Shown here: one piece after another, positions 3,433 to 61,480 of the stretch
Layout of the letters: every line of letters begins with the position of its first letter
How positions within the stretch are numbered: the first letter of the stretch is position 1
Assembly: GCF_012863495.1 (NCBI RefSeq)
Contig: NZ_JAAVJL010000001.1
Coordinates: 2,662,001 to 2,726,000, forward strand
Source: Pseudanabaena yagii GIHE-NHR1
Lineage (GTDB): Bacteria > Cyanobacteriota > Cyanobacteriia > Pseudanabaenales > Pseudanabaenaceae
DNA length: 64,000 bases
Direction: 5' to 3'
The notes under the pieces: model-generated
Told to the model about the DNA's origin: nothing
Database searches by the model: none
What the model saw: the letters and a program-made list of their open reading frames with translations, nothing else
Made by a program: the position numbers and the translations under genes

Positions 3433-3571
3433 TTAGGGACTTGCTATTAATTAAAGTACCTGTGGCTTCGACGCTTCGACAGGCTCAGTGCATCGCTCCG
3501 CTCAGCCAACGTTAGCTGAGCGAAGTCGAAGCTAGATAATTTGGTGGGACTTTTTATCCGCAAGTCCCTTA
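3433..3571. mobile_element. MITE-like element, copy 2
   Basis: Same orientation and ends as the copy at 2544 (TTAGGGACTTGC to GCAAGTCCCTTA), about 139 bp. It carries roughly 26 extra bases in the left arm (around GACGCTTCGACAGGCTCAGT), which look like a rearranged duplicate of the arm itself. It lies just upstream of ccdA, so it may alter ccdA expression. Confidence 0.8.
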
Positions 3572-7950: not shown

Positions 7951-8069
7951 TTAGGCTCTTGTGAATAAAAAATGTCCCACTAAAGTTATCTAGCTTCGAC
8001 TTCGCTCAGCTAACGTTGGCTGAGCGGAGTCGAAGCCACAGGTACTTTAATTAGTGGCAAATTCCTTAC
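7951..8069. mobile_element. MITE-like element, copy 3 (inverted)
   Basis: About 119 bp, opposite in orientation to the copies at 2544 and 3433. It begins TTAGGCTCTTG, has core arms TAGCTTCGACTTCGCTCAGC and GCTGAGCGGAGTCGAAGCC, and ends GCAAATTCCTTAC. The terminal repeats are less well matched than in copy 2. It sits upstream of the CheB-CheR kinase. Confidence 0.75.
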
Positions 8070-29294: not shown

Positions 29295-29509
29295 AACAAT
29301 GTCTCAACAGCGTAAATAAAGTTTAGTTAAAGATGTCCTTACAGATATTTTGCTAGTCCCCCCTAAGACTATTCCCATAGTTCATTTAGAAATTAATCTT
29401 ATTGATAATTCAAATAAGAACTACAGCTTCGACTTCGCTCAGCTAGCTTACACCGATGGCTGAGCGGAGTCGAAGCCCATCTGCAAATTATTTAAAACAA
29501 CTATAACTA

Positions 29510-57115: not shown

Positions 57116-59194
57116 CTACTCAAATTGGGGCATTTCTAAGGCAATGGGGGATTGTTCTAGCCTTAACGCTGATTGCTTGACCTTGGCGGCGAAGGCAAGA
57201 GGGTCTAGGTCAAACTGCTCGAATAGCTCACGTCCACGAATACAACGTAACTCAGGATTTTCGGCTGCGCCACTGACTACCCAGAGCACAAAATCCTTAT
57301 TGCTACGGGCATTTTCAATTTCGATCGCAGAAATGGCAAAGGACTCGCGATCGCTAGTAAAGCTTTTAATTACTACAGCTTCGCTTTGAGCATCTTTAGT
57401 ACATTCGAGATCGTAACCCACTTGCGATTTATCGACCGATCGCACCATCCAGCCGTCACGCATATATTGCGCCATCACCGAGATCATCGCCAGTTTTTCG
57501 GCAGTGCTAGGATCTTCTATCGAGAAAGGAACTGGTTTCTCAACAACGCGATCCACGACTTTTTCGACGACGCGATCGACTAGCTTCTCCACTTCCACAA
57601 TTTTTTCGACTTCAACTAGCTTCTCGACCTCGACTAGCTTCTCGACTTCAACGATTTTTTCGACTTCAACAATCTTCTCAACTTCGACTAGTTTTTCAAC
57701 CTCGACAATCTTTTCGACTACTTTTTCGACTTCAACGATTTGAGCAGGTTCCGATGGATAGGCAATTTCAGCACTGGAGAAAGCTGCGATCGCTTCTTCG
57801 CTAGTAATTGATTCCGAAACAGGAATTGCAATTGGCTGCTCATCAGGTTGGACTGCTACAATCAAGTCACTAGTTTCTTCGGCATCATCAACGGGAATTG
57901 ACTTGGAGATTGCAATGGGGATATCAGGCTCGGCAATAGCTTCTGATGTTGTATCCTCCGATGGCGCGATCGCATAGCTACTTCTGGGCTTAGCCTTGGG
58001 CAACGAGTCGATCGCTAGAGTTTCTAGAAATTCCTTTGCCTTTCTTGCCTTTTCGGGTTTGCCTTGAGTTTGATACAAAACAATTGCTTTCCGCAAATCA
58101 TCACCTGCAAGGGTTTCATCGGCGATGTTAGGTTGTGAATAGGTCAAGCCGCGATAGTAATAGGCATCGACATTGCTAGGCTGTAGCTCGATCGCATGGC
58201 TAAAGTCCCGTAATGCTTCGGGGTATTCCTTCAGAATGTAATGCGATCGCCCGCGCCGAAATGCTGCCAAATCACGGTTGGGATCTAAATCAAGGGTGCG
58301 GCTATAGCAAGCGATCGCCTGTTCGTAACTCTTGAGCTTGAAATAGGTATTACCTAAGGAAAAATGGGCATCGACATAGCTGGGATCAATGTCGATCGCT
58401 GCCTGAAAATCTGCCAATGCTTGCTGGAACTGATTCAATAAAAAATTAATTTCGCCCCGTTTGTAATAGGCAATCCTTGCTTTATCAGGACGCATGGAAA
58501 TAGCCTTGCCATAGTCGCCGACTGCCTTGGCATATTCGCGCAAACTCACATGGGCATCGCCTAAACCTAAATATGCCTTAATAAAATTGGGATTCAGCTT
58601 GAGTGCTTGGCGAAAAGATTCCAGCGCATCCTGTGGAAATCCTTGCTGAATATCCTCTAAGCCCCATCGATAATAGACATCAACTAAACTCACGCCCTTG
58701 CCAGCCCTAATTGCCTTTTGGGTTTGGCGTTCCCACTCGCGATCGAGCATCCGTACATATTCTTCGCGAAATACCCCCGCATCGGTTTGTGGTTCGAGGG
58801 GCATTCCTTGAAAGTGGGGCAATTGCCGTAGGTAATCTGTTCTTAGGGGTTCATCAAACGTGACACAAGAATCCCAAGCCACCCATACTCGAAAATTATT
58901 TGCCTGCGAGTCGATGTCATAGGCTTCGCTGAGTTCGCGGTAACGAGCTGATCGCAGTTTGAGTTGATATTCCCGATCCGCAGGTACAACCGTACCTGCG
59001 GCAAAATAGCCCTGATTAGCACTACCGATCCGCTTGAAATAAGCGCGATCGCCAACCTTGAGAGTTTGAATGTTGCCGCAGTTCCAAGTAACGATATACT
59101 GCTCCCCCTCTGAGATCTCAGCGATCGCTTCACGAATGAAATCGCGAATCTCTGGCTCTGTTTGCTCGTTACACAGGAAAATTCTTGTGACCAT
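57116..59194 (-). CDS. EVE-like / TPR / hexapeptide / DUF3883-like fusion protein
   Basis: 692 residues in four parts. (1) about 30-145 looks like an EVE/PUA-type domain: 'KVGDRAYFKRIGSANQGYFA' then 'AGTVVPAD', and 'PLRTDYLRQLPHFQG'. (2) about 172-385 holds six TPRs. (3) 485-554 is a run of V-E-V-E-K-(I/L) hexapeptides, about 11 units. (4) about 565-690 resembles DUF3883-type PD-(D/E)XK domains: 'SQVGYDLECTKDAQSEAVVI' then 'KSF' and 'AIEIENARSNKDFVLWVV', but the expected E-V-K reads V-I-K, so the nuclease is probably inactive. EVE and DUF3883 modules are known from modification-dependent restriction. The role here is unknown. Confidence 0.75.
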   Translation of the reverse strand: MVTRIFLCNEQTEPEIRDFIREAIAEISEGEQYIVTWNCGNIQTLKVGDRAYFKRIGSANQGYFAAGTVVPADREYQLKLRSARYRELSEAYDIDSQANNFRVWVAWDSCVTFDEPLRTDYLRQLPHFQGMPLEPQTDAGVFREEYVRMLDREWERQTQKAIRAGKGVSLVDVYYRWGLEDIQQGFPQDALESFRQALKLNPNFIKAYLGLGDAHVSLREYAKAVGDYGKAISMRPDKARIAYYKRGEINFLLNQFQQALADFQAAIDIDPSYVDAHFSLGNTYFKLKSYEQAIACYSRTLDLDPNRDLAAFRRGRSHYILKEYPEALRDFSHAIELQPSNVDAYYYRGLTYSQPNIADETLAGDDLRKAIVLYQTQGKPEKARKAKEFLETLAIDSLPKAKPRSSYAIAPSEDTTSEAIAEPDIPIAISKSIPVDDAEETSDLIVAVQPDEQPIAIPVSESITSEEAIAAFSSAEIAYPSEPAQIVEVEKVVEKIVEVEKLVEVEKIVEVEKIVEVEKLVEVEKLVEVEKIVEVEKLVDRVVEKVVDRVVEKPVPFSIEDPSTAEKLAMISVMAQYMRDGWMVRSVDKSQVGYDLECTKDAQSEAVVIKSFTSDRESFAISAIEIENARSNKDFVLWVVSGAAENPELRCIRGRELFEQFDLDPLAFAAKVKQSALRLEQSPIALEMPQFE

Positions 59195-59231
59195 AGGGGC
59201 TATATATCTTACGTTTGCACTGATTGTATCT

Positions 59232-59270
59232 AGAAAATAGAGGGAGCGCTTGGCACTCCCTCTATTTTCT
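59232..59270. terminator. Hairpin between aroH and EVE-TPR gene
   Basis: AGAAAATAGAGGGAG and inverse around CGCTTGGCA; 15-bp perfect stem. On the minus strand it ends in T-rich sequence 12 bp after the aroH stop, so it terminates aroH. Confidence 0.75.
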
Positions 59271-59281
59271 CAAATATTTTC

Positions 59282-59662
59282 TCAAATTTGGGCGTAAACA
59301 AGATCGGGGCGGAGATCTCTGGCTCCATTTAAGTAAACATGCTTAATCTGATGTTGCTCAAGGGGTGTATTCACATGAATGAGGACACGAATACAACGCT
59401 CTAAGCTGCCCTCGACATACATTTGCTGCACATCTAAAAGTGGCACATGCTCCCAATGCGATCGCGATCGGGCAATTTTGGCAGGAAAAACCACATCAAT
59501 ATCTGTTGTTGCCGAAAAAGTGGCACTTACGATTTCACGCGGATCGATATCATTTTGCGCTTCGATCTCCTCCATAAGCTCTAGCACAGCCCTTTCTAAG
59601 GCTGCGTATGTATTTGCTTCAACTGTGGTTGCACCACGAACGCCACGTACACGCCAACCCAC
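59282..59662 (-). CDS. aroH: Chorismate mutase, AroH type
   Basis: 126 residues, monofunctional. Chorismate is rearranged to prephenate, the substrate of PheA at 26605. Typical AroH residues are seen: 'WRVRGVRGATTVEANTYA' with Arg near 7, 'SATFSATTDIDVVFPAKIAR' (Thr/Asp and Arg of the active site), 'PLLDVQQMYVEGSLERCIRV' (Glu/Arg), and 'HVYLNGARDLRPDL' at the C-terminal end (Tyr and Arg). The trimeric barrel enzyme is complete; transcribed on its own. Confidence 0.94.
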   Translation of the reverse strand: MGWRVRGVRGATTVEANTYAALERAVLELMEEIEAQNDIDPREIVSATFSATTDIDVVFPAKIARSRSHWEHVPLLDVQQMYVEGSLERCIRVLIHVNTPLEQHQIKHVYLNGARDLRPDLVYAQI

Positions 59663-59931
59663 GTTTTACACCATCCGTACTGTATGTAATTATGCTTGAT
59701 TGAGTCAGAGAATGTTTGTTAGAAGGCAAAGTGCCGTAACAGACATTACTCGACTGTTAATCATATCTGTCATTTATTAGATTACCCCTAAAAAACAATG
59801 TTAATTTAATTGCGATCAATTGCCAAATAAACTGAGTGCTTCGTGAGTCCTTGATTTAGTTCCTGTGCTTGGGGATGCACAGTAAAATAAGGAACCAGAA
59901 TTTTTATAGCGTGGCGAAGCACTACAAAATA

Positions 59932-60171
59932 TTAGGCTCTTGCCGATAAAACATGTCCCACCGAAGAGTTATCTAGCTTCGACTTCGCTCAGCTAACCTC
60001 GACTTCGCTCAGCTAACCTCGACTTCGCTCAGCTAACCTCGACTTCGCTCAGCTAACCTCGACTTCGCTCAGCTAACCTCGACTTCGCTCAGCTAACCTC
60101 GACTTCGCTCAGCTAACGTTGGCTGAGCGGAGTCGAAGCCACAGGTACTTTAATTAATAGTAAGTCCCTTA
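59932..60171. mobile_element. MITE-like element, copy 5 with expanded arm
   Basis: Starts TTAGGCTCTTG, contains AACATGTCCCACC and the core arm as in copy 3, ends GTAAGTCCCTTAA. At 240 bp it is twice as long as the other copies because the left core arm is present seven times. The right arm (GTTGGCTGAGCGGAGTCGAA) is present once. Confidence 0.85.
59981..60120 (+). repeat. Seven tandem 20-bp units
   Basis: Units of GACTTCGCTCAGCTAACCTC begin at 59981, 60001, 60021, 60041, 60061, 60081 and 60101. They are identical except that the last ends GTT and rejoins the normal MITE sequence. There are no spacers, so this is a tandem array, not a CRISPR. Identity of all units indicates very recent expansion. 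Confidence 0.95.
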
Positions 60172-60197
60172 AAAATAGTAAAAAACTTATTTTATTT

Positions 60198-60779
60198 ATG
60201 ACTGAACCACGAATAGCCTCAAATTCAGCAAATTCAGGCGCTAGTGAGATTTTTTATATATCGCCATTAATTCGGATTACTTTGTTGCTGCTGTATCTAG
60301 TACTGACTGTACCTTTACCATTCTTGAGCAACTTTACACATTCCGCAATTCCTGCTTCATGGCTAGGTTGGGGCTTAGCGATCGGATTTGTATTTTTGTA
60401 TGGGGCATTAAGCGATCGCGTAATTATTGATGATCAAGGCATTAGTTTGGTTTATCCCCGATGGTTTCCCACTTTTTTTCGTAAAGGTTGGTCATTGCCT
60501 TGGCAAGATATCCAAGCATTAAAGCCCAGAATTACAGGACAGGGCGGGATTGTTTATTATTTTGTGAGTAAAAAATCCGATCAGGCTTATTTGCTACCGA
60601 TGCGAGTAGTGGGGTTTGCTCGATTAGTCCAACGGGTTCAGGAGCGTACAGGTATTGATACCAGTGATGTACGCCCTTTAGCTCAGCCTTGGATGTATTT
60701 AATTTTGTTGGTATTTACGTTGCTAATGCTAGCGATCGATAGTTGGACAATTTATACAGCCCTAACCCTCACGCATTAG
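60198..60779 (+). CDS. Hypothetical membrane protein with PH-like domain
   Basis: 193 residues. Two membrane helices at about 28-46 ('ITLLLLYLVLTVPLPFL') and 55-72 ('WLGWGLAIGFVFLYGAL') precede a beta-rich cytoplasmic part ('DRVIIDDQGISLVYP' then 'GWSLPWQDIQALKPR'), typical of bacterial PH (bPH) domains, and a C-terminal helix ('WMYLILLVFTLLMLAI'). Probably a membrane protein of unknown function. It starts 27 bp after the MITE, which probably affects its promoter. Confidence 0.75.
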   Translation: MTEPRIASNSANSGASEIFYISPLIRITLLLLYLVLTVPLPFLSNFTHSAIPASWLGWGLAIGFVFLYGALSDRVIIDDQGISLVYPRWFPTFFRKGWSLPWQDIQALKPRITGQGGIVYYFVSKKSDQAYLLPMRVVGFARLVQRVQERTGIDTSDVRPLAQPWMYLILLVFTLLMLAIDSWTIYTALTLTH

Positions 60780-60796
60780 AGTTTTACAGTCAAGTC

Positions 60797-60836
60797 GAGA
60801 TATTTGAAAGCGCAGCACTGCGCTTTCAAAATCTCT
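60797..60836. terminator. Hairpin between converging genes
   Basis: GAGATATTTGAAAGCGCAG-CA-CTGCGCTTTCAAAATCTC, with one bulge. It lies between the stops of the PH-like gene and the GAF gene and probably serves both. Confidence 0.7.
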
Positions 60837-60838
60837 GG

Positions 60839-61480
60839 TTATAACTCTAAAGGGCGATATTCCGCATGAAGCTGGGCATTTAGGATAATCGCGGCGATGC
60901 TTTCCATGCTGTACTGCATCATTGTGGCGATCGCATCATCGAAATGGTTAGTTTGTGAATGGGTTAATGTGATAACTCCAATTACATTGATGCCATATAT
61001 TAGGGGTACTGTTAGCGCCGAACGAGCTGTGTATGGTTGATCGGGCAACTGTAACCAGCGCTCATCAGTGATCGCATCATAAATGACCCCAATCTGGCGA
61101 TGGCGTAAAGTCCACCCCGCGAGTCCACCATCTAAGACTTTAGAAATTACGGCATCCTTGCGATCGCGTGTAACTGGCCCCCGTGCCAAAATACTTTCGA
61201 TGATTACACCATCTTCGTCGATCAAAAAAATGCTTCCCTCATCCGCCTCAGTATATTTGGTGAGGGTTTCTACCGTATTTTTGAGTGTGGTTTTGAGAAT
61301 GAGACCACCACTAACAGACTGAGCATAGGAAATGGAGTTTTTGAGCAAGGTTGCTTGTAGTTGGAGCGCAGATTGAGCCACAGCTAGCAAAGTGTGGTCT
61401 TCTAAATTGCTTTGAAAAGGGATGACACCTAGCTGACTATGGATTGATGGATCTGGTGAGTTGATCGTTTTAAGGTTCAT
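60839..61480 (-). CDS. GAF domain protein
   Basis: 213 residues. One GAF domain spans about 55-205: 'TVETLTKYTEADEGSIFLID', 'ILARGPVTRDRKDAVISKVL', 'GGLAGWTLRHRQIGVIYDAI', and 'ARSALTVPLIYGINVIGVIT' followed by 'LTHSQTNHF'. There is no conserved chromophore Cys of phytochromes or cyanobacteriochromes at the expected place, and no output domain is attached. It may bind a nucleotide or small ligand and act on a partner. Transcribed alone. Confidence 0.85.
   Translation of the reverse strand: MNLKTINSPDPSIHSQLGVIPFQSNLEDHTLLAVAQSALQLQATLLKNSISYAQSVSGGLILKTTLKNTVETLTKYTEADEGSIFLIDEDGVIIESILARGPVTRDRKDAVISKVLDGGLAGWTLRHRQIGVIYDAITDERWLQLPDQPYTARSALTVPLIYGINVIGVITLTHSQTNHFDDAIATMMQYSMESIAAIILNAQLHAEYRPLEL

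Follow-up and report, generated by a model that had tools for sequence, protein, structure and literature searches.

The array-bearing MITE and its hairpin

In the window, by which we mean the whole stretch of 64,000 nucleotides analysed from Pseudanabaena yagii GIHE-NHR1, a complete MITE is located between a chorismate mutase type I gene and an open reading frame of 193 amino acids, and one arm of its hairpin is expanded into a tandem array (Table 1). The 193-aa frame, whose start codon lies 80 bp from the array, had no Pfam match (E 0.001), no Rfam family was found across 58500-61000, and a consensus scan with a simple sigma-70 consensus revealed no promoter- or terminator-like sites inside the element. 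The element is absent at the same site in the relatives G002, G021, G023 and G025, and in G021 the same intergenic region runs continuously through one TTA. Relatives have other insertions in this intergenic region (59663-60197; L061, L062): that of G021 is palindromic, and G002 has an unrelated one of about 200 bp with its own 31-bp tandem duplication. Elsewhere in the window, 18-bp repeats and their multiples correspond to a VEKLVEVEKIVE-type stretch at 57576-57719, within a minus-strand open reading frame of 692 amino acids; the genome also shows a frequent GCGATCGC motif, known as HIP1, which points to a cyanobacterium.

Table 1. Coordinates of the features at the array locus (positions of the window).
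Feature	Position	Strand	Details
Chorismate mutase type I gene (PF07736)	59282-59662	-	Divergent from the 193-aa frame
Left target-site duplication TTA	59932-59934	+	From the sequence; single TTA in the G021 empty site
Complete MITE	59935-60168	+	234 bp; ends GGCTCTTGC ... GTAAGTCCC
MITE left flank, outside the hairpin	59935-59975	+	By-eye comparison with other copies
Stem base and first left-arm unit	59976-59997	+	91% complementary to 60118-60139 over 22 nt
Tandem array	59979-60117	+	7 units of 20 bp, the last 19 bp; TCGACTTCGCTCAGCTAACC
Hairpin loop TAACGTTG	60114-60121	+	In units 1-6, junction TAACC in the loop's place
Single right arm	60122-60139	-	GCTGAGCGGAGTCGAAGC on the + strand
Right target-site duplication TTA	60169-60171	+
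193-aa open reading frame	60198-60779	+	Hydrophobic stretches by eye; start 26 nt past the MITE's TTA duplication

Tandem Repeats Finder assigned the array a period of 20, 6.9 copies, 100% matches and a score of 278, the highest of its 20 rows for the window. The seven units start every 20 bases from 59979 and 59999 to 60099, each reading TCGACTTCGCTCAGCTAAC(C); unit 1 is preceded by AGCT and units 2-7 by AACC, while the final unit continues into the loop (GTTG) and then into the right arm. The repeated segment is the left arm plus half of the loop, placed seven times head to tail. An earlier note on this DNA had described seven abutting units at 59981-60120 with a single right arm; both the identical units and the single arm were recovered, and its array limits were off by 2-3 bases. 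Chance origin of the arm-like matches is excluded, since 15 were observed in the window against 0.46 expected and a maximum of 3 in 100 shuffles.

The first unit is complementary to the right arm at 91% of 22 nt across a distance of 120 nt. The last left unit lies only 8 nt from that arm and could by its sequence form a compact, slightly shorter hairpin with it, contrary to the earlier statement that no simple full hairpin is possible. For a plain core (7993-8036) the predicted single-stranded DNA fold was -20.3 kcal/mol (z -7.7); for the expanded form it was -30.1 (z -3.3), with the centroid pairing the first unit with the right arm. The loop TAACGTTG is the commonest one among plain copies (64/94).

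The MITE family and its expanded copies

The arm CTTCGACTYCGCTCAGC occurs 345 times in the genome of the window (5.57 Mb, 9 contigs). A census was compiled from all 95 places matching left flank plus arm, 100 of the 118 right-anchored places and other loci of the arm scan, which after deduplication gave 138 arm clusters: 124 with the flanks of this MITE and 14 without them, which were set aside (L205 and L206 were fetched after the census and stand outside its counts). One arm of each kind was present in 98/124 copies, 94 of these 98 having an arm spacing of 24 bases. The commonest end-to-end length was 112 bp (45/95 left-anchored copies, 25 being without a measured length), and the core of this 112-bp family is an 18-bp palindrome. 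Outer flanks were not shared between any two copies of the census, and target duplications of TAA/TAA or TTA/TTA were found in 78 of the 90 copies with both ends readable. The terminal inverted repeats are short and imperfect (left GGCTCTTGC or GGGACTTGC, right GCAAGTCCC), matching at 7 or 9 of 9 positions, and at 6 of 9 in the window copy with its right end GTAAGTCCC. Many copies that are too short for a transposase gene, terminal inverted repeats and a target duplication with its empty site identify the element as a MITE, as had been proposed; its expansion is confined to one arm, again in line with the earlier note.

Elements of the IS5 family make TNA target duplications, and 3-bp target duplications are a product of DDE transposition. 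The TWA duplication found here fits the IS5 family. At the only PF13359 locus of the genome, just one sequence resembled the left end (two mismatches) and the right end was absent, the nine PF13340 loci had no MITE end at up to one mismatch, and by-eye comparison of 94 left-end matches with the known copies left two over, both variant MITEs. A transposase bearing the ends of this MITE was thus found neither at the PF13359 and PF13340 loci nor at the two leftover left ends.

Four further places in the window had been listed as copies with one arm each. Three of them are the same MITE (2573-2614, the 3515 region and 7994-8035), and one arm each is nearly right, except that a 24-bp insertion disrupts one right arm. 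At the fourth place (29427-29475) the arms are again the same, but the loop is longer and the flanks are different; by eye, its arms and spacing are those of a second palindromic element, which uses the same arms at a spacing of 31 nt, ends near TATAG and is nested in this MITE at L020, L052 and L187. The identical 24-bp insertion, which contains CTGAGCCTGTCGAAG, interrupts the right arm in the 3515 region (L108, L173), at L156 and at L205. Modified copies of the MITE seem to spread, since this insertion is common to three unrelated places.

The genome search that the earlier note had proposed revealed left-arm arrays of 20-21 bp with 2 to 7 units in 11/124 copies, the window copy included. 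The window array is the longest with seven units, followed by L048 (six) and L054 (five); L027, L041, L046, L101 and L186 have three units each, and L098, L103 and L157 have two each. A twelfth array, at L020, consists of two units split by the nested second element. Apart from the 20-bp array of the window, the period is 21. Right-arm arrays of 20-21 bp were not found among the 124 copies fetched, which cover 100/118 right-anchored places. With loci treated as independent, the left arm outnumbered the right by 12 to 0 among 20-21-bp arrays (p = 0.0005) and by 15 to 3 when extra arms of any period were counted (p = 0.008). A strand-neutral scan for perfect arms gave six loci at 20-21-bp spacing, all on the left arm; at other spacings it gave one locus of 19 bp, on the right arm, and otherwise spacings of 25, 26 and 44 bp. 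Array elements were found in both orientations.

Several loci were kept out of the 20-21-bp class. Six of them carry duplications with other periods, three on the left arm (L058, 25 bp; L133, 48 bp; L017, 77 bp) and three on the right (L039, 26 bp; L043, 19 bp; L011, 57 bp). L042 was left out because its flanks resemble the other arm-bearing element. Four others (L052, L059, L147 and L206) have two same-direction arms 26 bp apart and lack an opposite one of their own; arm inversion between short inverted repeats may be the cause. At L011, L017 and L133 the tandem repeats, with periods of 57, 77 and 48 bp, comprise about half an element, and possibly arose when one MITE was inserted into or beside another and recombination followed; the L011 junction, judged from its sequence, would fit an insertion into the loop of another MITE with subsequent recombination.

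By eye, the junction between units is of a GT type at L020, L027, L046, L054, L098, L103, L157 and L186, and otherwise AT (L048, L101), TGT (L041) or CC (window). In the GT class, TAACG of the loop is joined to TTCGAC of the stem base (one L186 joint has TTCAAC); the loop is usually AACGTT, and the stem base reads GCTTCG. Each of the eight arrays of three or more units keeps one junction type throughout (six CC in the window, five AT at L048, four GT at L054 and two in each of five others), but the type differs between arrays, again by eye. Units are diverged within the arrays L048, L101 and L186, and units 1 and 2 differ at a CTCC/CTTC site in 5/12 arrays (L020, L098, L101, L103 and L157). 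CTCC was enriched in first units, with 5/11 arrays versus 9/94 plain copies (p = 0.006); as this comparison was made after inspection of the data, it is only a hint of recombination between copies. The reading of perfect unit identity as a sign of a very recent or ongoing event is weak, since 74/94 plain copies have an identical 16-nt left arm and identity of units therefore says little on age.

A scan of 26 genomes of the genus revealed the arm in 19/26 and a pair of perfect arms in the same direction, no farther apart than the gap scanned, in 4/26, the genome of the window included; the perfect-arm scan gave no 20-21-bp period in the other three of those four. In G004, a genome of the genus with 323 arms, eight 26-bp units and part of a ninth form a one-arm array; its outer flanks are not clearly those of this MITE. 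Further arrays of G004 may be missed, since its assembly has about 770 contigs and the scan was limited to perfect arms. A scan of genome contigs, in which the genome itself and very near ones were possibly not covered, matched only Flavobacterium sp. H122, of another phylum, where a 20-bp unit, TCGACTCCGCTCAGCTAACA, that closely resembles the one in the window is repeated in tandem at L110 (5850-6500). The search of plasmids, with the same possible limit of coverage, gave no match.

Origin of the one-arm arrays

We conclude that the array is a real minisatellite which grew out of a single MITE arm, and that about a dozen of this kind were found in the genome. On balance, we regard slippage at the hairpin as the likeliest start of a one-arm minisatellite in this non-autonomous transposon, and among the readings considered it is also the best fit of those raised in the earlier note. 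In this model, DNA synthesis would first copy one arm and the loop; the second arm would then re-pair in the template and eject the nascent end, which would slip back by about 21 nt and re-anneal to the base of that newly copied arm, using a TT present both in the loop (AACGTT) and in the stem base (GCTTCG), so that the arm would be copied again. From two units on, ordinary slippage or unequal exchange could add units while retaining the junction variant of that array (CC in the window), and junctions that are uniform within arrays and differ between them are as growth in place predicts. Support for slippage comes from the recurrence of left-arm arrays (11/124 copies and L020) with similar GT-class joints at eight loci, from the strong hairpin predicted for the plain core in single-stranded DNA, and from the duplications of other periods on both arms together with the 26-bp one-arm array of G004. 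In addition, the flanks do not group the expanded copies: pairwise distances averaged 15.1 among them and 13.4 under permutation (p = 0.73 for closer grouping), in a test covering 65/124 copies and 8/12 arrays, the 59 copies that failed the filter including the window copy, L103, L186 and L020.

Several observations weigh against this explanation. The TT match is equally available on the right arm, which nevertheless showed no 20-21-bp array, a result that simple hairpin slippage would not predict; at the CC junction of the window this match is missing, and L027, L101 and L103 have loops other than AACGTT. The candidate rule that perfect palindromes expand more was rejected, these making up 3/11 expanded copies versus 33/94 (p = 0.74), and this lack of enrichment also counts against slippage. 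The first units that differ in 5/12 arrays argue against plain duplication in place, unless mutation or conversion followed, and none of the comparisons made caught a plain copy turning into an array, which counts against growth in place.

The main rival to slippage is the spread of already expanded copies, in which one or a few ancestral expanded MITEs were distributed by transposition or gene conversion and later changed only in unit number and by point changes. We hold this to be possible, though doubtful. It would account for 20-21-bp arrays on the left arm only, and it draws support from the single GT junction type at eight array loci, the rarer AT junction common to L048 and L101 (about 2.4 kb apart), the matching target-site duplications in all nine of the 12 array elements whose two ends could be read, and the apparent mobility of modified copies suggested by the 24-bp arm insertion common to the copy near 3515, L156 and L205. 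However, the flanks of expanded copies showed no clustering in the 8/12 arrays tested, there are four junction types, and a common GT junction is equally expected from a preferred microhomology.

Three other explanations appear far less likely. A selected array, with repeated protein-binding sites or control of spacing for the downstream gene and unit number as the tuning, is improbable: the start codon 80 bp downstream and the promoter elements that BrickBuilt of Porphyromonas gingivalis is reported to hold, according to the available text of PMC4596501, favour it, but the consensus scan gave no regulatory site inside the element and the MITE is missing at this site in the four relatives. The array is probably a selectively neutral repeat, and no function is claimed for it. 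Even less probable is a REP-type system, in which a RAYT/HUH transposase would cut the arms as REP sequences and copy them, perhaps by a rolling circle. Three Y1_Tnp matches above the family cut-off, the arm clusters without the flanks of this MITE (14/138) and the similar unit in Flavobacterium sp. H122 are in its favour. The 3-bp target duplications, as from DDE transposition, are against it, and none of the three Y1_Tnp matches has the arm motif (at up to one mismatch) within its surrounding locus of 3.1-3.4 kb; RAYT action was rejected on this ground, as was the rolling-type copying raised in the earlier note, which is without support. Least probable is an assembly artefact with an inflated number of units or units copied from other loci; the unit number of tandem repeats is easily misassembled, but a 35-nt two-unit CC pattern (at up to 3 mismatches) matches the genome six times, all at this array, and the same assembly has eleven further array loci with different units or junctions.

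Comparison with known systems and significance

According to the available text of PMC4596501, BrickBuilt of P. gingivalis is a bacterial intergenic MITE with a head-to-tail minisatellite, in which units of 23 nt (1 to 22.8 copies, strain-dependent) lie between a leader and a tail in 19 elements of strain ATCC 33277; the words "slippage" and "hairpin" do not appear in the main text of that source. The present family likewise has head-to-tail repeats whose unit number differs between copies (2 to 7 units, 11/124). Unlike in BrickBuilt, the unit here is a single arm of the hairpin carried by the element itself, and most copies are plain, about a tenth being expanded. MITE464/PgRS of P. gingivalis, as described in the same text (PMC4596501), is another MITE that contains tandem direct repeats, of 41 nt; it differs in unit length and layout. 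The foldback element Tetris of Drosophila virilis, in the available text of PMC4079207, has variable tandem repeats of about 220 bp inside its terminal inverted repeats, differs in repeat number between alleles and was proposed as a seed of satellite DNA; it is eukaryotic and its unit is about ten times longer than the bacterial one of 20 bp. REP palindromes, following the available text of PMC3733652, resemble the present arms in being short, palindromic and paired in inverted orientation, with hundreds in a genome, whereas the arms studied here lie inside an element with 3-bp target duplications and no RAYT link was found. A search of the open-access literature by titles and the start of abstracts brought up nothing about this MITE, nor about bacterial MITEs in which one arm is expanded. 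Minisatellites borne by MITEs are thus already known, and what is new is the unit being one arm of a palindrome and the recurrence of this event.

The conversion of palindromes to direct repeats has usually been inferred from single mutants or reporter assays. Here, one genome contains more than 120 similar hairpins, 98/124 with a single arm of each kind and about a dozen with 2, 3, 5, 6 or 7 units and readable junctions, and the family can serve as a natural experiment on how hairpins drive slippage and how minisatellites arise; its array loci are candidate markers for strain typing. A more far-reaching reading, which we put forward tentatively and consider rather unlikely, is that the MITE family acts as a stereotyped minisatellite generator, in which hairpin-driven jumps of DNA synthesis over about 21 nt, from the loop back to the stem base, would have copied the left arm anew and turned plain hairpins into one-sided arrays, independently and repeatedly across the genome. 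If this is true, a 21-nt jump restricted to the left arm in both orientations would mean that a polarity internal to the element, and not the chromosome strand, picks the arm.
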